A DNA stretch of 64,000 nt from Odontesthes bonariensis. Lineage: Eukaryota; Chordata; Actinopteri; Atheriniformes; Atherinopsidae. Below are positions 6,132 to 56,585 of this stretch, piece after piece. The number at the start of each line of letters is the position of its first letter. The first letter of the stretch is position 1. The position numbers and the translations under genes were made by a program. The notes beneath the pieces were generated by a model, which made no database searches, was not told the DNA's origin, and saw nothing but the letters and a program-made list of their open reading frames with translations. The stretch lies in assembly GCF_027942865.1 (NCBI RefSeq), contig NC_134510.1:9024001-9088000 (forward strand). Direction: 5' to 3'.

Positions 6132-22390
<16,259 letters not shown>

Positions 22391-40481: not shown

Positions 40482-43400
40482 TTAAGCAATTTCTTTTCTT
40501 TTCTCTTCCTCTTTTGCTTCATCTTGTTTTTCTTCCAGTTGTCTTAAAAGGTAGTTTTGGGTCTTTGTAATATCGATGAATCTCCTCTCCCTGAAAGAAA
40601 AAGAAGATAATATCAAAGCATCAAAAAAGACATCTTGTTGACATGTTCGACTTTAACAGGCATTAAACTCAAGTGTGTCTGATCCTGGGGCGTTTGTATT
40701 GGGTGAAAGTTCTGGCAGCTTACCAAGTTAGTCCTCCTTTTTGGCTTTCTCACTCTCTGTATCTGGAGATGCCTCATTTGCAGATGCCACTGCATGCACA
40801 CAAACACACACATTAAATCAATATGACATTTTATTTCAGTGTATAGCCACATTCTAGATTTACCACACTGATGGCTCAGTTTGACATGACTTAACAATCA
40901 CCATGTTGACAACTAAACTGTCACAGCGGCCCTTAGGAAAGAATTGCAGAGCTAATATTCCTTCTAAACCCCAACTAGGTCTCCTAAACTGGTTTACTAA
41001 TGATTTACTATAACACACAGACTCACACGAGACGGCACATACACACATGCCTCCAGAAAGTGAGAGACAGAGAGGTAGAAAAGAAAAGGGCTCCGCAAAA
41101 GTTACGCAGTACACACCGTCTTCCTTACCAGACCTGTATTCTGTATGTACTGTATGAAGGGGTGTCGCTGCCCAAAAAGTACAACATGTTCTCAGAGTAA
41201 AAAGGCGGGTAAAGGCAATATACTGCAAACCATTAGCTCTCTTTTATAGAGGACAACTGAAGAAATTTGACATGTTACTGTGAAGATCCAGCACACTAAT
41301 ATGGATACACATTTTCTCACTATATCTGATGCATCTAATTTTAATCTTTAACTTTAATCTATGTTTGAACCTGATTATGATGTCTTTAAGTTTTAGGGGT
41401 GGGAAGTAAGTAAAAGGCAATAACAACTTTTTACGAAATGAGCCCTGCAAAGAGAATTCACATAGTTGCATGTACATACTAATCGTGCAGCAGGGCATGA
41501 TTAGTCTATAGACAGTTCACAATAGAATACAATGAGTGAGAGTTGTCTGAGTGGAGCTGTTGTTCTGATAATGTGCTTGTGCTGTAATCAACATGCTCAA
41601 GAGAAGCCTTCTTACCGAGGGTGTGTTGCTGCCTTTTGTTTCTCATACTGTGCTATCTGTTTAGCCTGAAGGTCCAACAATACCCCGTTCAGTCCGTCAG
41701 CCTCAGCACAGAAGCAGTTGAAGAGCAGTTCTTTAAGACCTCAGAGTTTCTAAAATGATGTATTGGATTTATTGTTTTGTTTCCAAATCGTGGTCTCTGG
41801 TAAAATGTGAGGCAAGAGGATGGTTTGGACATGCAAAGGAGCATGCGTTGCTTATCTGAATGTCAGCAGGATTTGTTGCACATTAATGGGTCTGCCTTTC
41901 CTCACCTGTTTCTCCCCGCTCACCTTTCTCTGCCTGTTTGTACATGCTTAGCTTCAAACATGTGCTCTCACAGATTAAGCCTGACTATTTAAGCCAGTGG
42001 CGATGCTGCTGTATGTGACCTCCACCCAAAAACTGTCTCCTGAATAAGCATCTCTTGTTTAAGTTGGCATGACAAGGTTGTCAAATAAATAATTCTGTGT
42101 CCAATTGCCTAAATCAGCTGAGCAAGAAAATCTGTCATGAACTTTCTTAAGACTCCGACACAGCGGCACCAATCAAACACTAAAATTATGCTGTTGTTAT
42201 CCTCCTGCTGTTTTATTGTGAAGGAAATGTCACCTTGCAATATTAAAGTGTGTAAACTCTCACTTGTGCAGTAGGACAAAAGTGTACTTTAAGTGGCTAA
42301 ATACCTACCTAAAATACATTTTGTCGTGGAAAGAACTTGAAAGCAAATGTTTTTTTTCCTGTAAATTTTTTAAAGGAATGGAAAAAAGGGTAATCAATGT
42401 GTGTTAGTTTTTCATACCATCTGATGAAGGTTCAGGAGCTTCTAATGGAAGTGCACTGTCTGCAGCAGGCTCTGATGTCACACTTCCTGATGGAGCCTCT
42501 GGTACTTCTTCTGTCTGAGTTTCTGAAACACTTGGTGCAGGTGCTGGAACTTCTGCATTCTGGCTCAGTTCAGCAGCTGATTCCGCTTCTGTAGCCAGGC
42601 CAGGTGTGACCTCTGCTGGTAGGGTAGTCACAGCAGGGGCTGTAGGGGCCTCTGTTGCCACCTCAGTGGCAGGATGAGGGTCAGCCTGGGCAGATACTGT
42701 AACAGGAGATAATGGAGGCATCTCTGGAACACATGCTGCAGCAATAGCAGTGTCTATTACAGGCTCTACAGCATCTTCGAGAACTGAGGGTTGAGCTGGT
42801 GCTGCAGGTTCAACTGACACTGAAACTACACCAGGTGCTGAGGACTCATTTGGTGCATTTTTTGAAACATCAATCTGTGTTTCTGAGGTGGTCTCTGGTG
42901 CAGAATTGTCAAGCAGGGCTTCTGCCTCTACAGGTGCAGACTCTTCAACTGTAGGTTCAGCTGCTGCTTCAACGGGAGCTTCAACAGGAGCTTCAGCAGC
43001 GGCTTCAACGGGAGCTTCAACAGGAGCTTCAACAGGAGCTTCAGCAGCAGCTTCAACGGGAGCTTCAACGGGAGCTTCAGCAGCAGCTTCAACGGGAGCT
43101 TCAACGGGAGCTTCAGCAGCAGCTTCAACGGGAGCTTCAACGGGAGCTTCAGCAGCAGCTTCAACGGGAGCTTCAGCAACTGCTAAATCTGGGACCTCGG
43201 CAGCCACTTCAACAGGGGCCTCAACAGCCTCAGCTACAGCCTCCTGTACAGCTACTGGGGCCACCACTAGCTCAGATACAACTGGTTCAACAGATGGTTC
43301 AGGGACCACTTCCTCTGCAACATCAGGGGCCTCTGCCTTTACTCCTTCAACTGATTTAATAGGGGCTTCTTCCATGGCCTCAACTAGGACTTCGACCACA

Positions 43401-46400
43401 GGAGGGGCCTCGTCCTGCACGGTTTCAACAGAAGCTTGTGCCTCCACTGGAGGTACATCCTCAACCACTGCCACAGCATCTATAGGCTCACCAGAGTCCT
43501 CTGCTGGAGCAGAGGCTATAGCCTCTTGTGCTGGTTCCTCACAAGCAGCAGGTTCTAGCTGTGGCTCTGCTAGGAGGTCTTCCCCTGAGCCAAGATCCTC
43601 CTGAGCCTCCAGGGCCACTAAGACTGCCTCCGTCTCATCTCCAGTTCCTGGTTGAAGATCATCTGGTAAGGCAGTCTGCACAGGCAGCTGCATCTGGTCC
43701 TCGATGGTTTTTGCATCTTCTGCAATGATGCCATTTTTGATGGCTGTCAAAACAAAGATGACAAAAGAAATAAGTATATACAACTTGTAAGCATCCTGCA
43801 CTTATCAAATGACAGTCCACTCAGTTAGTGATGTCCAGTTGATGTCAATCAATCTCAATCAATCTTTATTTATATATCGCATTTCATACCACAGGCAACT
43901 CAATGTGCTTTGTGTAACAATGATGGTGACACTGACAGTGTCATTCAATATAACAGTTTTAAGAAGGGCTTAATTCCGTTAATAGGTTACCACATTTGTG
44001 AATACTTATTCATCCAAACATATTGCAATATATTTTATGTTTTCCTCTGAGTTTTTTCTTTAAACACTTTTTCCAAAACTAAGGGAATAAAATCTGCTGT
44101 CAAGTTTTCAAAATTCATATTTACACAATTCTACATAAACTATATATTCATACGTATTTGGATAAACGTGAGAAATATTTCAATTTACCAAACACATGAA
44201 ACCTACAGCCTTCTCAAAAAAGTTGATACTGAGTAAAATTCAATTAAATTAAATTTTATTCACATATCACTAAATCGCAACAAATGTCATCTCTCGGTAC
44301 TTCAGAGATATAGTAAAAAAAAAAAATCGAATTAATAATTGATAGTAGAATTTGGTTACTTTTGTCACCTGCTCAAACTGTGACTGCACCCTAACAGTAA
44401 CACAAGGTAATCTTTGAAAAAAAAACAAAAAAAACAACAACAATCAGGCTCCTCTGGCTCTTCCAAGTGCCTCTCGTGTGATTTGCAAGAAGTGAATATA
44501 CCTGAGTGAAAAACAATCAGAGCCAGGAGGAGTCTATAACAATGGCAATCACTGCCACATCTAATGCAGCTGCTGTTACTAAACTGCGTTTATATGACAG
44601 CCTCCTGCAGGGAGGGGCTTTGGAGGCAGAGCTGAAGCACAGCACAGAGGGAGGAAGAAGGACCCATGAATTGTAGTCATTCAAATTCCTAAGTCAAATC
44701 CAGCTTTTTCTCAAGGTTACCAAGTTTTGTTTCAGATTGCATAGACAGTACAAAGACAGCATATTACATTTGGAATCAGAGAAATTTTCTCAAGTTTCTG
44801 AAAGACATAGGCTAAACTTATCAACATCTTTTAAACAGTTGGAATGGGGCAAACAAGTTGTGTTAACATAAAAATACAGGCATGCCTGAAGGGCAATAAT
44901 AACAACTATTATTTTGTTGTTAGGTAACTTGCACATCTGTGAGAGCATAATTTGTGCTGAAGGATATGCAAAAGTTTTGCAATAACTTAATGCTGCCATC
45001 TGGACAAGATCTTTTGAGTGTTGTTAAAAAAAAAAAAAAACATGGTAAACATGCCCCTGTAACAACTTTCCCCCCCCCATATGTTGCTGGCATCAATTTC
45101 ATAAGTACTTCTCAAAAAAACTAAATTTCTCAGTTTCAGCATCTGACTTGGTGCATTATCATTTGCATTACAAAGTGTCTTCAGTTCTCGGGGAGGAAAG
45201 GGGTTGTGCTGTGGAGCTGTACTTGAGGATATGCAGAATACAAGAGAATAAGCAATAAGGCACGCAAATGCATGCTGAAGAAGCAATTCTTTCATTTCCG
45301 TTCTTGAAAATAGGATTTATTGAAGCCCTGAGGACCTCTAAGTCTCAGAGGAAATAAAATGCAAGTGGTATTGAAGGGGTACCTTCACTTTGTTTATTTT
45401 TCATTCCTCTTTGCTCTTCTACAGTCTTTTGTGAGTGTGAACAGACCATCAGCCCTGATATAAGGCTATATTAGACAAGGAACTAAAGAGGCCTCAGACC
45501 AACCAAACACAAATGACAAATCGTAAATCTCAGGTCACAGGAACCACAAAATCCTGACAAATGCTTTTTATCTGTTTTTATTTCAAAGCTTGCTGCCTCT
45601 CAATAACATAGCGTGGACATTGTCCCCACGTGAGACAAACCAGAAGGATTCAGTTAGCTAAAAGGGAGGATAGGTTTAGCCGTTGCAGCTTCCTGATTTT
45701 ATTTGTCTGTCAGTAGCTTTTAAAAGAGCTCAGACTGATGGGTGGAAGGGAATGTGATGGCTTGGCAGCTTGCATAAAAATTAGCCAGTGGGAAAATACA
45801 GAGGCAAATAAGTGAAGCAAATCATTTCTAATGACATCTCCTTTGTTTGAAGACTGTAGAAGTTAAAAAGCAGCTCTTTCCAGATGTTCTACATTCCATA
45901 ATACTGGCTTCTGACTGTTCCATATTTTTTATTATGTGCTGTCATGTGTCAGTCATTTCTTATCTTTTAATCAGAAATATACATTTTACACCCACTAGCA
46001 GAGAAACAAAAAAAGCTGTCGTTAGAATAGTAGTTCTGACCAGGTGTTGAAAACTGTGAATGTCACTGTTTTGGTCGACTCGAGACAGATACAGCCACTC
46101 CAGGCATGAGTGACTTGTTTGTCACAATGATTTAGCAGCCAAAGATGACACAGATCCCAGACAAAACAGTGTCATGGCTGGGTGGAAGTACAGGGAAGAG
46201 AGGGAGGGGGACGGGGGACCGGACACAGACCAGGGGCCCAGACTGGGGATGGGACCAGTGGTGACTTGGATGGCATACAACTGGTTTATTAGACAAACAG
46301 TGTACTGTATTAATTAAAACCTCACTCATTCAGCCATATTTAGAGAAGTCTGCCTGGGGTAGAGTACAATAACTGATTTTCTTGCCGGGGTGATGTAAGA

Positions 46401-47839
46401 GTCTGGAAAGGGACCCGAGCTTCTCCAGGTGACTAAAGCTGGCTGCCTGGAGAAACAAAGCCCTGACACAAGCATCATACAGTGTGAGAGAGGGAATGGA
46501 ACATTCTGTACATGAACACAAAGGAGCTATACCAGGCAGAGTAATCGTATCAAACTTTTTAGGCTACTTGCTCAAAAATGTAGTTCAAATTTTTCCTCAA
46601 TCAAATATTTGCATAAACACAAACAACAAGGCCAGAGACTGTCATGGCATGTGTTTGTAATGATCTGGCTTGGGAACACTGTGTACAACCAGCTGTGCTT
46701 AGCATGACGCTACCATGTGCCAATAAGAATGAATAGACAATCATGGACTGTGTCAGTGTTTGAGATGGGTGTATGTACAAGCTTGAACAAAGCGTACACA
46801 TACGTGGAGATGGAAAAACTAAAGCAAGACAGCCATGACAGCCATGACAGATTGAGCATATCAGCAAAAGCACAACTTTTTAAAAGTGCTTCACTGTCCC
46901 TTAGAGGAATGGTTTGGTAGCTTAAAACATTTTATCTTTCCTTAAAAAACCATCCATCTCTAAGCTTCTCCTTATTTACCGTTGCAGTTCACACACCTCT
47001 TATCTTGGCGATGATAATCACACACACTTCATCAGCAACATACTTCTTGCAGAAGATAAGTGGATGACTATCTTTGTCACTTTTATTTTATGAAACATAA
47101 GTTATTTTGTTTGGCTGCTGGCGGTTTTGACAAACTTTCGAAATCAATTCAGAACATTGGAAGCAAACAGGTTGGATTGCAATCTTGCCTCAGGCAGCAA
47201 AAGCCTTTTAAACACTCCCATCTTTCTTTCACACTGTCTTATTGTAAGATTTGCATGTTGTCCTAAATAGAATGCTCTCTTAATTTCACAGAAACAGGAT
47301 GAGAATGACCATGATCATACAGTGCAACTTAACTCCTGTTCAGGTCCCATTACATCAATAAATAATTACAAGTTTTTCATCAAACCACTCTGTGGACAGA
47401 AAGCTCTAAAAAAAAAAAAAAAAAAAAAAGAAGCTGGTAAAAATAACACCAAAGACATGTGGGCAAAGATGAAAAATGACTTAACATGAATAATTCTACA
47501 CTTGAGGTACTTAAGTATGCTATGCAGGGGAATGTGAGTGAGAAAGCACACGGTGTACCAGACCAGCCGGCAGCAGTCATACAGCCTTTAACAAGATCTG
47601 ATTGAATGGAAGTAACCGAGACTTAGAGCACCTACTGTCCACTGTTTCAGAAATATAAGCATGCCCATGTGATCAAGTTACAAATGTCAAAGTTTGAAAG
47701 ATAAATTCCATTTTTAAAATGTCAAACTTCTCACAGGGGATATTTACTTACCCAGTGTGTCTCCATTGCTCTCCTCAGGCTTTGTGCCTGGTCTTTTCTC
47801 TTGATCAACAGTCTGAGCACTTGATGATGAACACCCCAT
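40482..47839 (-). CDS. ERICH5: Glutamate-rich protein 5 (ERICH5-like), acidic lipid-anchored protein
   Basis: Exon 1 (47839-47752) encodes MGCSSSSAQTVDQEKRPG. MGCSSS is a consensus N-myristoylation site with an adjacent palmitoylatable Cys and is characteristic of ERICH5. Exon 2 (43743-42418, phase 1 in and out) encodes about 440 residues rich in Ala, Glu, Val and Pro, with a VEAPVEAAAEAP minisatellite. Two further exons fit in phase: 41739-41616 (containing LNGVLLDLQAKQIAQYEKQK) and 40590-40482 (charged helix LLRQLEEKQDEAKEEEKRK, then EIA and stop). With these the protein is 548 residues. An alternative last exon at 40789-40728 joins exon 2 directly and ends AKKED. Function is unknown and membrane association is inferred from the N-terminus. 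Position between MATN2 and RIDA matches human ERICH5. The first two exons are firm and the 3' end is inferred. Confidence 0.82.
40728..40789 (-). CDS. Possible alternative last exon of ERICH5
   Basis: After a GCATGCAG acceptor the minus strand reads ASANEASPDTESEKAKKED and then a TAA stop, in frame if spliced directly from the exon ending at 42418. A GTAAG-type donor follows about 8 nt after the stop, so it could also be an internal exon that truncates the protein. Its acidic, Glu/Ser-rich composition suits ERICH5. If spliced after the 41616 exon instead, it would stop after a few residues. Confidence 0.4.
41616..41739 (-). CDS. Probable third coding exon of ERICH5
   Basis: This 124-nt stretch has a GTAAG donor and an AG acceptor that is only weakly preceded by pyrimidines. 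It stays open in the frame set by exon 2 and hands the correct phase to the 40590-40482 exon. It encodes a predicted amphipathic helix containing LNGVLLDLQAKQIAQYEKQK, unlike the low-complexity exon 2. Confidence 0.5.
42950..43180 (-). repeat. Coding minisatellite in ERICH5, 36-bp unit
   Basis: Near-identical copies of a 36-bp unit encode VEAPVEAAAEAP, with occasional 18-bp part-units giving extra VEAPVE. Units differ mainly at synonymous sites such as ACGGGAGC versus ACAGGAGC. The antisense strand is also open, reading Ser/Thr/Gly/Ala repeats, which is a by-product of the repeat. Confidence 0.92.
43848..43925. repeat. Short interspersed repeat end
   Basis: It starts with tandem TCAATCAATC and continues CTTTATTTATATATCGCATT and ACAGGCAACTCAATGTGCTT, a terminus very common in teleost retroposons. 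It lies in ERICH5 intron 1. Confidence 0.55.
44236..44320 (-). repeat. Short interspersed repeat end
   Basis: On the minus strand this reads as a TTTAGTGATATGTGAATAAA-type end followed by a TTTAATTTAATTGAAT tail, a diverged form of the GGCGCTATATAAATAAAATT fish retroposon terminus. It lies in ERICH5 intron 1. Confidence 0.45.
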
Positions 47840-49125
47840 GTTTAGTAACAACAATAGATCAGACAGTAAAATGGAATCTGTTATGAAGAGCAAGCAAACA
47901 CAAGTCTCAGAGCTGTCTGTTTTTTTAAAGACTGAGACTGTCGTGCAGTGCAAACATGAACTACTAAACTTTGCTTAATTCCTAAAAGTAGCTCAGCTAC
48001 CACAATGTGTCTATGTGTCTATGCATGGCCTGCTGCCCTCCTGCCTCAAACAACAATCTGTTAAAAGCATAAAGCAAAGTAGCGCAGTCTGTATTACTGA
48101 GTGTTCCCTGCCTCCTGCTCACAGTCACACTATTCACACAGGAGAAGGAGGAGGCAAACACGTTCATGGAGCGTCCACCCCCTTACGGTCTGCTCTGGAG
48201 GACATCCACCACCTTGTGGTCATATTGAGAATAACATGTGCAGCACACTAGATCTCGAGATTTTTTCTGTTTTTGATGTGTAGAAAAAATTCAAAATTTT
48301 AAAATGCTTTTTGAAACCAATTCAGTGTTTTTCAGTTGTAACAAATAGATGCAGTGGATGATGTGCAGACCATTAAAATAATTTTTAGAATTTATCACAC
48401 ACACCACAAATGTGAAGTTTAAAATGTTTATTTGTCAATAAACTGTACAAAAAGTTGTTTATGTGAGAACACTTCTTACCAAATACACTTTGTGGCACCA
48501 TAGGTTACATGTACACATTTATTTAGTGTCTTAGTAAGACTTTTCCATGACATCAGAATCAAAGTGTAGGTATCTCAGCTATGATGTACTTAGTTTTCAG
48601 TATGCTAAACTTAGAAATATTTCTTGGCAGCCTTTAAGACCCTTCTTGAACATTTTAAATCTAAAGCTTACATAGCTTCATGTGTGGTAAAATCTAGATT
48701 TTGAGGTACCATTGTTGAAAAAGTGTTGTCAGTAGCAGTTGGTGGGTTTTCATCCGAATGTATCATATATTTATACTGGGTTTTCAGAAAATCTGCTAAA
48801 TAAAATGTGAATATATGCATGTTTCTATCCATGACTGTAATATTTTAAAGGATTGGTTCACAAAGATAAGTAGTGGGGTGGTGCTAATTCTTCTGCCAGA
48901 ACTGCAGAAGAAAGCGTAAAGATATGGTGTGACTAAAAAAGAACCACTCAAACATCAAACAACAGCAAAAAAAAACATGAACACTGTCCTGTAATACTGT
49001 AGACAGTGTTGCATTTGCTTATGTTCCAGCATAGGCTAAACAGCAGTATTAAAACAGAGTTAGTACATTTCTTCAGAGACGAGTCTTCTTCAGTTTTGCA
49101 CTGTGGCTACGATGGGGTCAGCCTT
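47840..49125. other. MATN2-ERICH5 intergenic region
   Basis: This 1.3-kb interval must hold the MATN2 3' UTR and the ERICH5 promoter. A minus-strand AATAAA (48427-48432) is a candidate MATN2 polyadenylation signal about 0.7 kb past the stop. In human the ribosomal protein gene RPL30 lies between these two genes. I found no trace of it here. Confidence 0.5.
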
Positions 49126-50238
49126 TTACACGAGTTGATTCTCCAGAGTCTCCAGCTTCTTTGACATAGCTTCAAGTAGGCATGTTAAAGAATCTTATAA
49201 CAAATAAATTCAAATTAGTGCACAACCTTACCATGTCCAAAACATCATACAGCCCAAAAGCTCAAGTATTATCTCTGGAACAAATCACTGCCTGCTTTGA
49301 TACTCATTTGATTTTTTCCAATTCAAACTTACATGTTAACTTTGAATACAAATGACAATGCTTGTTTTAGAAATGTTAATCTTAAAATGATTACATTATT
49401 GCAGTCCCTGTCACCACAGAGTGGCAAACTCTTCTACATCTTTACTTTTGAAAGTCTCAGCCTCTTCAGCAGATAAGATGGAAGAGCTTGGAGTTCTGAC
49501 AAGGATGCAGCTGGAATATTGGGAAGGCTATATGATTAGTTTTATTGAGAGATGGATGCATTAATTACTCTGACATGCAGCAGTGACTACTCATGCATGT
49601 AGAGACTGCAAGGCAGAGAGTTAACAGTAATGAAGGAGAGTCTGCAGTTCTTGTTAACAACAGATGGTGTTGTCCTGGACATGTCACTGAGAAGGAGCGT
49701 CTCTGCACACCAGAGATTTAACGGTTGGCTTTAGGTTTCTGTTGATGTGCTCTACTGGAGAGTTCAACTGTTTACCTGTTTGTAACACCATCAGATAGGT
49801 TCTTGCCAAGGTTAAAAAACAACATGCCAATTCATTCATAGTGATCTATCAAGGCTTTAATCACACCTCCCACTCTGCTACACTTTAACTTTAACAAAGG
49901 TTTGTCAGTTGATTTCTATTTTAGTTTATTTGTTTATCTTTTATAACATGTAAAATATTCGCAACATTATTTACCTTTGGACATGAATGAAACATTTGAT
50001 TTGGGTTTTTAGACTCAATCGTGTCACAAACACTGATCCACCAATCTGACACCTTAATCTCTCTGCTAGTTGTAGTTTGGTCTGTGGAGGACAATGAGAA
50101 AGCACTGACACTGTGTAACACTGTACAGTCAGCACAAAAGGATATTATTCTGAACCAGGCTCTTCAACTTCTCTGTGACTTGGTTCTGAAACATTAACAC
50201 ATTCTCGCACTGGCACATATTTTCATCAGCTGGTTTAT
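49126..50238 (-). CDS. MATN2: MATN2 coiled-coil exons separated by an AT-AC intron
   Basis: Exon 50238-50146 encodes [17 protein letters not shown] and the start of a helix. Exon 49175-49126 encodes [15 protein letters not shown] and the stop. The intervening intron 50145-49176 (970 nt) begins ATATCCTTTT and ends AC, with TTCTTTAAC (branch A at 49185) nine nt upstream. Joining at these ends gives the expected matrilin coiled coil in frame, whereas I found no GT-AG pair that does. Confidence 0.88.
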
Positions 50239-53200
50239 CTGTGGGGGAAAAAAATAATTAGATGAGAAAGTTTTTCTGGATTAGAATCCTTTCATTTTTA
50301 TCTTATCCTTTCACTCTGATTCCTCCCTTGTAAATTTTCTTTCTGTCTCGGCTTGTGTAGGTTCTGATTAAGCCAATGTATACATGCATTTCCCATCTGC
50401 ACTCATAGGTAAATGAAAAAAGTATATGGGATCTATCTGATTCTGTCAGATCAGAATTAAAACAGTTAATGCATTTCTGCATAGATGAGTGTCCTCTGGC
50501 TCTTCAGACTGTGGTTATTGTTATTGTGGTTATTATTATTGAGGCAGCAGGTGGCAGTAATGGACCATTATTAAGTCAAATTTGACCAAGCTTTGTCATG
50601 AAAGTGCCTCATTGGAAACTCACCTAACATAACACTGAACATGGTGTCCATAGTGCTTTTTTTTTTTTTTGATTTTCATCAACCTTGTGTGGATACCTTT
50701 ACCTTTACACATCCTGGACTTGAGCTTCATTGCAATTTCTCCCATTTTCTCAAAATCCTCAGCATAATACAGGTGCATCTCATCAGGCTCTGATGCTATT
50801 TCTCTCAACTCCTGTTCAATGGCCTTACCAACCCCCAAGGCATATATGGTGACCCCTGAAATGGACAGAAAAAAGACTAATGGTATGAAACTGCTATCAA
50901 AAAGAGATGCTCTGATTAGAAATTGAAATATGGATGTCAAGACAGAATATATGTTACGTGTACCAGAATTTTTTGCTTTACTGGCCCATTCGGAAACATC
51001 ATCTTGTGATCTTCCATCAGTGAACACAATGCTGACTCTTGGAATGGTCGGCCTGGCACCCTCTTTGGCTGAAAAGCTGAGCTCAAACATGTGATGTAGA
51101 GCTGAGCCTGTCATGGAGCCCCTCCCCATGTACTGCATCCGGTTCACAGCCTGCTTGACGTCTTGCGCTGTGACGTACTGGCCTAAGGTGAACTCTGTGC
51201 GGACCTTGGTGGAGTACTGAATAAGGCCTACATGTGTGCCTGTCCTGGAAATGTCCAGAGAGTCCACAATGCCGTTTACTAACTGCTTGACCAGCTCAAA
51301 GTTGGCAGGGCCCAGACTCTTGGAGCCATCGATCACGAAAACTAAATCCATGACTCCATCGTGACATTCTGATTCTGCCAAGAGAGTAAAATACATGTTT
51401 CTTTGATTTTCTTGCATTCTCGAGCAGGGGTTCTACAGACCCCATATCTTAGAAAGATGAAAAGAAAAGAACGTAAAAAATTGTTACGTTTTCGAATTGT
51501 AACAAAAACCTTTTAGTTTGTCAGGCAATGATTCCAAATTTCTTCACTAACCAACCTTATTTAGAAAATATAAAAAACAACTAGAAACTGATGCCAGCAG
51601 AGGTGCAGAGGTTTACCCTTTCTTTCATTTACACTTGTTCACCATTTAGGGACAGCGGATACTAAGTTATTGGCAGACCAGTCAAGCACACACACTCTGT
51701 TCCCAGGAAGCTACGCTGTTGGAGGTCCTGCAGAATGAGGTCTGGTTGTGTCCTGAGACCAAAGTTCTTTACAATACTATTAAGAAATTGTATCCATTTT
51801 TTTAATATAATCAAATTTTTTCAACAGTGTGCTGATTCTCTGTCAGAGTTTGGTAATTAATTAACAATCCATTTTTGCTTGGGAAGTATAAGAAATATTT
51901 TTGTGGATGCTCCTGTTATATCCAGTCCTGACACCCTCACCTGTTACCAGCTATTATCCCAATCCCAAAAAGGTCTAAAAAACTTTTTTTGGCCGCTCTC
52001 CCAACTTTTTTAGAGTTTGTTGTCGAAATCAAGTTAAAGGTTGTTATTTCTAAAAATTACTAAAAATTATTTATTTTATACTTTTGTTTGTTAAATAAAA
52101 GTTAAAGAACAAATTAGCAATGTATAGATTTATGTTTTTGCTGCATTTTGGAAATTTTTTTCCACTTCTCTGGAAACTATGAAAAGACATTTGTGTTCAT
52201 ACTTTTGCAGCTCTTTCTACCTTCAGCCAGCATGAATCCCTCAAAACATTTACAGACGTAGGAGTCAGTGGTACTGACACACTGATGCTTCTTCCATTTT
52301 GTTTTTAACAGTCATTAATAACCTCAAAATAAAATGAAAATTAAAGGGAACTAAACATTTACACTGTTTGCTTATTTACTGTTCTATTTATCCTCATGCA
52401 TTTCTCCGTTGGATATCTTTGAATTATTGTGTTTCATGCTCACAGTGAGAAATATTCCTTCAAATGTGTAAGACTGGACTCACTCTGGCATGTCTTTCCA
52501 TCAGGTCGCAGTGTGTATCCGTCTCTGCATTTACACACACAAGAATCTTCTGTATTCATGAACCCCTGCTCACAGCCATGTTTCCCATCAGCACAGTGGT
52601 CTGTCTCTGCAAGAGGGTAATCATTTACTACTGCTGCTCAATTTTAAACCTTCATGAAAAGCAGTGATCAAATACATACAGCTAATATTTGGTGACAGGT
52701 GACAATGACTTTTGCATGTTTTTGGAATTTACGTAATGATTTTACTTTACTTATTTGATTGGGGGCTCACTTCACTTTTATGGGATATTTCATTTTTCTA
52801 ATCAATGTAAAATTGCATTTATTTATTTAAAATCCCATCTTTTCTTTCATTAAGTAGACTGATTAGAACCGATTTCAGCGTTTGTATATTTCTTTATCAT
52901 TCTTTATGTGTTTGAGCCCCAACTGCATTCTCAGGTATGATGGAAAAATGAATGAAACCCAGGAGAGCTAAATGATGTTAGGGCTGATACACATTTATAT
53001 TGTGAGCCACTTTGGGATTTCTAAAACATCACAGTTAAAGAAGTGTTGCCTTACTCATAGATGATGAAGAAAACATTTCCTTTTTTAGTAAATAATGGCA
53101 TAAGGAGAAAACACTCACTTTTGCATGTTTTCCCATCTGGTCTGAGTGTGTAGCCTTTTCTGCATTTACACACACAGCTGTCCTCTTTGTTCATAAACTC

Positions 53201-56200
53201 CTGTTCACATCCATGGGTACCATCAGCACAGTGATCAGTCTCTGCAGGAGAGAGACCATGTATCTGCACTCAGAAAACTGAGAAGTAATTGAAAAACAAA
53301 AAACTTTTGAGCATCATTTGTGCATCAGAAACAACTTTACTCTCAGGATTCATAAGAGCTTGAATAAAGGCAACGGAAGGCATCTTCAGTTCATGGTTCA
53401 GAACTGAAGAAGCCTTTTGTCTGAGAGGTGAAATGTCTTCAAGATCCCAAAAGAAGTTCTTTCAAGTTATTTAAAACTGAGCAGATTTACTCTGGATGCC
53501 AAAGGATGCATACCCTGTATACTCTTCATCTTATTTAAATCTACCAAAGACCACAAAGAATAAAAAATAATCTAACCCCAGGTACAAAAAAGTAAGTCCA
53601 GATGTCAATTTTGCAGCCTCCATATCTTGTAAGAACATTTGAAGTAGGTTTTCAAAGAGTTTCGGTCGCTAATTAGTTCTCTTCTTCCACAGTCAAAGTT
53701 GTATTCTACAATATTTGACCACTCTTCTGAATGTATACACCATAATACATGTCAGCGAGTGTCATGTTGCTGTTTTCATGATTGGAAAGTGTAAAGAAAA
53801 TCTAAAACCATGTCTTTTGAATAACAAGGATGAAAAAGAAGCAGACTTTTACTTTTGCAGGTTTTCCCATCTGGTCTTAGTGTGTAGCCTTTTCTACATT
53901 TACACACACAGGAGTTTTCTGTGTTCATGAAATCTTGTTCACATCCATGGCTGCTATCAGCACAGTGATCAATCTCTGGGATGGAAAAAACAGAAATGAG
54001 AGGGAAATTTTTACATTTTGCCTGATTTTTCTTTTTTTTTTCATATTCTCTTGGTTCTGTTGTTTGGGGTGTTTAAAAATGGATTACTTGTGCATTCAGT
54101 TTTTTCACCAGATTACAAAATAATAAAAAGCTCTTACTGCTGCAGGTCTTGCCATCCAGATTTAGGACGTAGCCCTTGTTACATTTGCAGATGTAGGACT
54201 CCGGAACGCTGACACAGTTATGCTCACAGCCGTGGTTTCCCAGGTCACAGTAGTCTATTTCTGAACAGGATGACTGTCTTATTAATGTTTTATCTACACT
54301 ATCAGAGCTGCAACTGCAGTTATAGCTATATGTATCAGCATTTTATGTACAATTTGGCCATTCAAATCAAAACAGCAAATAATAGAGTGCAACTTGTTCA
54401 TCCGGAAATGTACAATAAGGTACAGAACTGAGAAGGCAAGTATTATCAGACAATTTTTCTTGTTTTGATTTGACAATACTATGAGAGCCTGAAATCAACT
54501 CTACATTTCAGCAGCTGCTCTGATGATTGCAAAACCACACTTCCTTCAGGAAATCTCCCGCACTTTACTTTCTGTTAACATCTGCCAGGGGACCAAAAAG
54601 GGGCCTTTTCCAATTGTGGGAGGACAAGACATCACTGGTAGGAGGGATGCTGGCTGTCATTTCAGCTGGAGGACCATAAAAGTTACACATTTGCACAACC
54701 TATTTTTGTAGTAACCACGTGAGGCTTATCAAGTCTATCATTCAAGTAACAAAAAGTTGAAATTATTATCATTACGAATATTATCACATATTAATTGTTT
54801 TTGATCTTAGCATTTAAGGTGATTACATTTCACACATGCACTTTGAGCATTTGAGCAGGGACACTGTCCAGTCCCGATGAAGGCTTGGATATTGATCTGT
54901 ACCATTAACCATAAAAGAAAGATGATGATTCTAAAAATATTACTGTTGCATGTCTTCAGGTCTATGGTGAGTTCATATCCTGGACGGCAGCGACACTCGT
55001 AGCCATCAGCTAGGTTTGCACAGATGTGTTCACAGCCATGATCCACCACAGCACATGTGTCCTCAGCTGCCGAGGGAAAACATGGAGAAAAAGTATCTAC
55101 AGTTCAGATTACAGACAGACACCCACAGTAACTGATTGTTTGGGGCCACACATTCTATTTCATCTCTATCAATTCCTGGCTGAGAATTTTAGCCATTAGT
55201 GGCAACATTTTACGAGTTGTTATGTCTGTCTGGTCGTGATAATGACAGGCTTTTTCCCTGAAAGCAGGCGCATCAAGACAGTAACAATGAAAACTGAAGA
55301 GACAGAAATTTTAAAACAATGACTTGAGAGATGTCAAAATATCCCATAGAGACAGGTGATTGTTTTTGTGCATCCATAATCAAAAGCTAAATTTGTCTGT
55401 GATATTGAAATATTGGCTATAGCAGTTTAAGAATTTAGGGGTATTCTTTGACATACATTATTAATTTCAAAGTGTGATTTATGAGAACATTAAGATGCTT
55501 TGTCAACATACTGCAGTTTTATTTGACACGTGAGAATGAGACTGTAGCTGGTAAAGACGTCACCAGATTTTTTTTGAAAAGTTTTTTTTACCTTTACATG
55601 TCTTGGCATCAGGATTGAGGATGAAGCCTTTCCTGCACTTGCACTTGAATGAGGCAGGGCTGCTCACACAGATATGTTGGCACTGATGGTCCACCACATC
55701 ACACATCTCTGAACCTAAGGCATGTAGGAACAAGCACAAGTTTGCAAACACACACGCTCTGAAAAGTACAGAAACACTATTATGAAAATAATCGTCACCT
55801 CCACACAGTTTGGACTGGAACACAGAGATCAGGGTGTCTATTTGGCTAAAGTTGGCCACCAGGTGCACATGTTCGGTGTGTGGCTTGCTCCCTATGGCCT
55901 TCAAGGTGTTCATATCAACCCGGCCCACTCCAATGGCAAAGATTTGAATACCAGCCTCCCTCGCTTGTGCTGCAACCTCCTCCACAGTGTCCTGAGGTCT
56001 CCCATCAGTCACAATCATAGCGATTCGTGGAATGTGCATGCTCATTGGTCGGGCTCCCTGTTCCTCGGTAAAGGATGTCTCCATGGTGTACTGGATGGCC
56101 AGACCTGTCATGGTTCCTGTGGCGAGGTGTTCCATATTCCTCACAGCTTGAACCACTTCATCTCTGGTGGTGTAGGTGTTGAGGGAGAACTCAGGCTGCA

Positions 56201-56585
56201 CTACGCTTCCATACTGGAGCAGGCCGACGCGTGTTGCATCACGGCCGACATCGAGGAACTGCAGTAGGTTTATGATGAAGGTCTTGACCTTTTCGTAGTC
56301 TTTGGGACGGATGCTTCTGGAGCTGTCAATGACAAAGACGAAATCCAGCGGTGCAGCTTTACAAGGATTCTCTGCGAACAAGAGTAAGTTTACAATCAGT
56401 TTTGAAAACTGTAATAGCAAATATAAACAGGCATTCTAATCAGCAACTAGTCACTTACCCACTGAATTGTTTTGGATTGTTGTCTCATTTGTCCCTCTGG
56501 CTGTGATGAGTCTGGGACGGTGTCTCTCCGGCTGCACTGCATTACAGCACAACAGGCAGAAGAGACTGAGGGCCAGGGATCTCAT
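49126..56585 (-). CDS. MATN2: Matrilin-2
   Basis: Secreted oligomeric extracellular matrix adaptor. Twelve coding exons join in frame: 56585-56459, 56371-55799, 55714-55592, 55066-54944, 54260-54138, 53975-53853, 53241-53119, 52606-52484, 51374-50964, 50855-50703, 50238-50146 and 49175-49126. They give 2145 nt, or 714 residues. Order: signal peptide ([14 protein letters not shown]), VWA1, six EGF modules each on a 123-nt phase-1 exon, VWA2 on two exons, then a C-terminal segment with CQCE cysteines and a heptad coiled coil ending LETLENQLV, which trimerises matrilins. Human MATN2 has ten EGFs and about 956 residues, so this copy is shorter. The last intron has AT-AC ends. A GT donor at 56891-56890 suggests an upstream untranslated exon. 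The synteny with ERICH5, RIDA and POP1 identifies it as MATN2 rather than MATN4. Confidence 0.94.
50703..51374 (-). CDS. MATN2: MATN2 second VWA domain (two exons)
   Basis: Exons 51374-50964 and 50855-50703. The metal-ion-dependent adhesion site looks intact: DGSKS near the start, Thr in [10 protein letters not shown], and Asp in FTDGRS. The domain closes with a Cys (SRMC) that would pair with the Cys at its start (SECHDG). Confidence 0.93.
52203..52322 (-). pseudogene. Decayed EGF exon of MATN2
   Basis: Between EGF6 and VWA2 the minus strand reads [14 protein letters not shown] then [14 protein letters not shown], with a matching phase-1 donor position (A before GTATGA at 52203-52202). This is the C-terminal two-thirds of a normal matrilin EGF. 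The first two cysteines are gone, and the frame upstream meets three stop codons before an AG. The exon is therefore a relic that would break the protein if spliced in. Confidence 0.75.
52484..53975 (-). CDS. MATN2: MATN2 EGF modules 4-6, tandem near-identical, cysteine-shifted
   Basis: Exons 53975-53853, 53241-53119 and 52606-52484 encode three very similar modules (DHCAD..HGCEQ.FMN..DSCVCKC then [11 protein letters not shown]). In all three the third canonical Cys is replaced by Phe, and the Tyr two residues before the fourth Cys is replaced by Cys. Six cysteines are kept but with spacing C-x10-C-x-C-x-C. Modules 1-3 keep the usual pattern. Confidence 0.9.
53390..53470 (+). repeat. Interspersed repeat fragment in a MATN2 intron
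   Basis: It contains CTGAAGAAGCC and GAGAGGTGAAATGTCTTCAA, phrases I associate with a common teleost retroposon. Family not determined. Confidence 0.4.
54138..55714 (-). CDS. MATN2: MATN2 EGF modules 1-3 (canonical)
   Basis: Exons 55714-55592, 55066-54944 and 54260-54138, each 123 nt with phase-1 borders. Each has six cysteines in the normal EGF order, for example [13 protein letters not shown] then KCKC then DAKTC in module 1. Confidence 0.93.
55799..56371 (-). CDS. MATN2: MATN2 first VWA domain (single exon)
   Basis: The exon begins [20 protein letters not shown], giving a complete DxSxS metal-binding motif. Thr lies in [10 protein letters not shown] and Asp in IVTDGRPQD. The domain ends SKLCG, supplying the second Cys of the domain-closing disulfide. 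Confidence 0.95.

Follow-up and report, generated by a model that had tools for sequence, protein, structure and literature searches.

The last intron of a matrilin-2 coding model, 970 nt long and lying at 49176..50145 on the minus strand of the window (the whole 64,000-nucleotide stretch of DNA analysed here), is, on its sequence features, almost certainly a conserved matrilin AT-AC intron in the MATN2 gene, probably of a teleost, and most likely removed by the minor spliceosome. The intron is real, it was correctly interpreted in the initial annotation save for small corrections, and it is already known. The features on which the argument rests are as follows.

49126..56585, minus strand: hand-made matrilin-2 coding model with 12 coding exons and 714 aa, arranged as VWA - 6 EGF - VWA - coiled coil
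50146..50238, minus strand: exon 11, with the CxC cysteines and the first half of the coiled coil, ending in KSLVQN (translation, alignment to 1aq5)
49176..50145, minus strand: U12-type AT-AC intron, 970 nt, phase 1 (sequence, pair enumeration, slide test, resampling)
50136..50145, minus strand: 5' splice site ATATCCTTTT, a perfect match to the U12 consensus (sequence; consensus as given in passages of PMC2831892 and PMC2846911)
49184..49192, minus strand: branch site TTCTTTAAC, one base of nine off TTCCTTAAC, branch A at 49185 (mismatch scan)
49126..49175, minus strand: exon 12, coding for the 16 residues that close the coiled coil (the I at the junction plus 15), and a TAA stop (translation, alignment to 1aq5)

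Intron ends and the coiled coil joined across them

On the minus strand, the intron runs from A50145 to C49176, with CTGGTTCAGAATA followed by ATATCCTTTTGTGC at 50146/50145 and AAGATTCTTTAACATGCCTAC followed by TTGAAGCTATG at 49176/49175. The perfect AT-AC U12 donor proposed initially, ATATCCTTTT, is read directly at 50145, and so is the proposed AC end at 49176, where the 3' end is CCTAC. The branch site, which had been described as one change from consensus with its A at 49185, was borne out as well: TTCTTTAAC has a single mismatch, is the sole 9-mer with three or fewer mismatches to TTCCTTAAC within the last 40 nt of the intron, and places the branch A 10 nt from the exon. U12-type introns are expected to lack a pyrimidine-rich tract; the pyrimidine content of the 20 nt before AC is 60%, within the range (55-85%) of the 10 GT-AG introns in the model, so that this feature is uninformative either way and does not single out the AT-AC intron.

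Joining 50146 to 49175 splits an I codon into A and TT, in phase 1, and yields a 47-residue coiled-coil peptide with 31 residues before the junction and 16 from the junction on. The first D codon of exon 11 is likewise split, with G at the end of the preceding exon (50703) and AT at 50238. The peptide aligned without gaps to PDB entry 1aq5, a cartilage matrix protein, over residues 5-47 of both (E=4.4e-08), while the runner-up match in the PDB search reached only 0.065. This cartilage matrix protein is matrilin-1, from chicken. In a Pfam scan, the peptide matched Matrilin_ccoil (PF10393) with 50.8 bits against a cutoff of 26.3. The intron therefore interrupts the coiled coil itself, with 31 residues on one side and 16 on the other, and does not lie just before the coiled-coil exon as had been proposed.

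Alternative splice pairs and chance occurrence of the motifs

A total of 2332 GT-AG, GC-AG, AT-AC and AT-AG pairs were enumerated and their products scored against 1aq5, with donors 30-199 nt past the exon start, acceptors at least 50 nt beyond and products of at least 20 aa. The AT-AC pair 50145/49176 came out top with a score of 107, followed by the GC-AG pair 50160/49194 (98), the AT-AC pair 50148/49176 (96) and an AT-AG pair (94). The pairs ranked 2-10 (scores 81-98) also keep the frame and finish in LETLENQLV, and they fit the homologue less well. When both ends were slid jointly from -25 to +25, GT-AG, GC-AG or AT-AC ends were found in only one of the 51 shifts, namely shift 0. Thus, the earlier statement that only this pair joins the exons in frame does not hold for the frame as such, which ranks 2-10 share, and it does hold for a gap-free join.

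That the last exons are spliced by the major spliceosome through GT-AG or GC-AG ends, the AT-AC appearance being due to chance, is extremely improbable. The pair that speaks most for it, GC-AG 50160/49194, is in frame and scores 98 against 107, but it turns SLVQNI into NSLTCLL, and beyond GC its donor GCCTGGTTCA does not follow the U2 consensus. GT-AG alternatives for the last MATN2 junction were rejected, as the best of them scores 67 in the pair scoring against 107, barely better than the 59 of the unspliced reading. Chance placement of the donor, branch site and AC end was also rejected, by the slide test together with resampling, in which a correctly placed donor and branch site seldom arose. 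Across 20000 Markov-1 resamples of the intron, with each feature counted separately, a perfect 8-base U12 donor at the first base was obtained in 1, a branch site 8-20 nt before the 3' end that differed from consensus at no more than one base in 39 and an AC end in 1183.

The motifs taken by themselves are another matter. The 9-base donor ATATCCTTT is present once in the window, both strands considered, where 0.79 occurrences are expected by shuffling, so that this motif by itself proves nothing; donors of the form RTATCCTT number three in the window. Another ATATCCTT donor is located at 44967 (minus strand), and one-mismatch U12 branch sites each followed by AC lie 2741 and 4478 nt downstream of it. 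With no recognised gene junction there, this set is probably a chance occurrence, indicating that a full motif set can occur without a known gene junction. As judged from the sequence, the set at 49176..50145 carries its weight through its position, exactly at the exon ends that protein homology sets.

Matrilin-2 identity and other features of the window

Exon ends in the 12-exon model were picked by hand, seeking GT and AG. All 11 introns are in phase 1, and 10 of the 11 are GT-AG, partly by construction given the hand-placed ends, the other being the AT-AC intron. Along the whole 714-aa model, six stretches of EGF type accompany two VWA domains, and PF10393 matches with 43.3 bits; these are features of the matrilin family. 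Downstream of the model on the same strand, Pfam detected the N- and C-terminal domains of POP1, so that both two VWA domains and a POP1 neighbour, as expected of matrilin-2, are present. Two further minus-strand ORFs, 47744-47974, which starts with MGCSSSS, and 42404-43801, which encodes 465 aa with repeats of the type APVEAAAEAPVEAPVEA, resemble ERICH5; neither gave a Pfam match. Human MATN2, ERICH5 and POP1 are near neighbours. LAPTM4B and RPL30 were not recognised by eye among ORFs of at least 40 aa at 43800-49130 or minus-strand ORFs of at least 45 aa outside 24000-57000, a survey that short exons would escape.

It is very unlikely that the gene is instead another matrilin with two VWA domains (MATN4 or MATN1), and the reading of the intron would be the same if it were. 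In its favour, the model has six EGF repeats and lacks an extended unique stretch ahead of the coiled coil; mammalian MATN2 has about 10 repeats and a long stretch of this kind. Against it stand the adjoining POP1 (Pfam) and the ERICH5-like ORF, which match the neighbours of human MATN2, and the wording CENVLMFQN, which we take to resemble human MATN2. Passages of PMC1464127 bear on both sides: they place MATN2 and MATN4 as the closer pair within the family, and they report that T. nigroviridis possesses MATN2, the table there giving a dash for zebrafish MATN2. The initial reading as a U12-type AT-AC intron of matrilin-2 is supported by the splice signals, the gap-free junction homology, the domain architecture and the POP1 neighbour.

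Several other features of the window were observed. Three adjacent MATN2 EGF exons on the minus strand (53975-53853, 53241-53119 and 52606-52484) are near copies with 77-88% DNA identity, compared to 50-61% for the remaining pairs among the six EGF exons. All three have F in place of the usual third cysteine (HGCEHxC) and C two residues before the fourth cysteine, where the other three exons have F or Y. Through this paired swap the six cysteines are kept and one is relocated, which may alter the disulphide pattern. At 52203-52287 (minus strand) lies a remnant of a further EGF exon, with the second half and a GT donor present and the first half absent; its three closest upstream AGs give phase 0 while its neighbours are in phase 1, and in-frame stops lie further upstream. 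This is probably a decayed, skipped exon. A 173-aa ORF at 7576-8097 (minus strand) resembles, in our estimation, the terminal part of a reverse transcriptase protein from a LINE-type element.

Known matrilin introns, predicted splicing and intron retention

The AT-AC intron of matrilins was reportedly first noted in MATN1. Studies from 2000 by Muratoglu et al., on human matrilin-2 and the conservation of the AT-AC intron in matrilin genes, and by Wagener et al., on a matrilin gene AT-AC intron, reportedly dealt with such introns. The intron described here shares with the published ones the gene family and the AT-AC ends, and its position in the coiled coil is presumably theirs as well; apparently only the species differs. 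The claim that an AT-AC intron is a feature of matrilin genes agrees with passages of PMC6865273, according to which minor introns are present in all four matrilin genes. Compared with vertebrate U12-type introns as presented in parts of PMC2831892, which covers zebrafish, puffer fish and others, and of PMC7367187, the donor, branch site and terminal dinucleotides are alike, and no difference was found. Passages of PMC6865273, PMC1464127, PMC2427018, PMC11693446, PMC7367187, PMC2831892 and PMC2846911 hold no description of a fish MATN2 intron, which does not prove its absence in print.

Donor and branch-site types of this kind pair with U11 and U12, as stated in passages of PMC2831892 and PMC2846911. 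In the splicing route that we propose, U11 would pair with ATATCCTT and U12 with TTCTTTAAC, and the AC soon after the branch site would be used; the motifs thus point to the U12 machinery as the most likely agent. Splicing would bring together both parts of the coiled coil at the C-terminus, which matrilin-2, by analogy with its family, is expected to use for trimerisation.

Read without splicing, the frame adds NILLC before a stop, giving a protein that ends in VQNNILLC, loses the last 16 of the 47 residues and keeps the cysteines. The peptide of this retained form still matches Matrilin_ccoil with 33.8 bits (cutoff 26.3), indicating that the trimerisation domain would be shortened and not wholly gone; the loss of this domain claimed initially therefore has to be corrected to a shortening, with the first half still recognisable. 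It is conceivable, though we consider it very unlikely, that slow removal of the intron acts as a switch, in which a limiting minor spliceosome would lead to retained matrilin-2 with altered, not absent, oligomers. If so, the retained form would combine both CxC cysteines, an extra C-terminal cysteine and a partial coiled coil.

The intron alters no existing view. It offers a clean case of an intron class retained in one gene family, and it is usable as a test case for fish gene annotation and for asking why matrilins retain minor introns.
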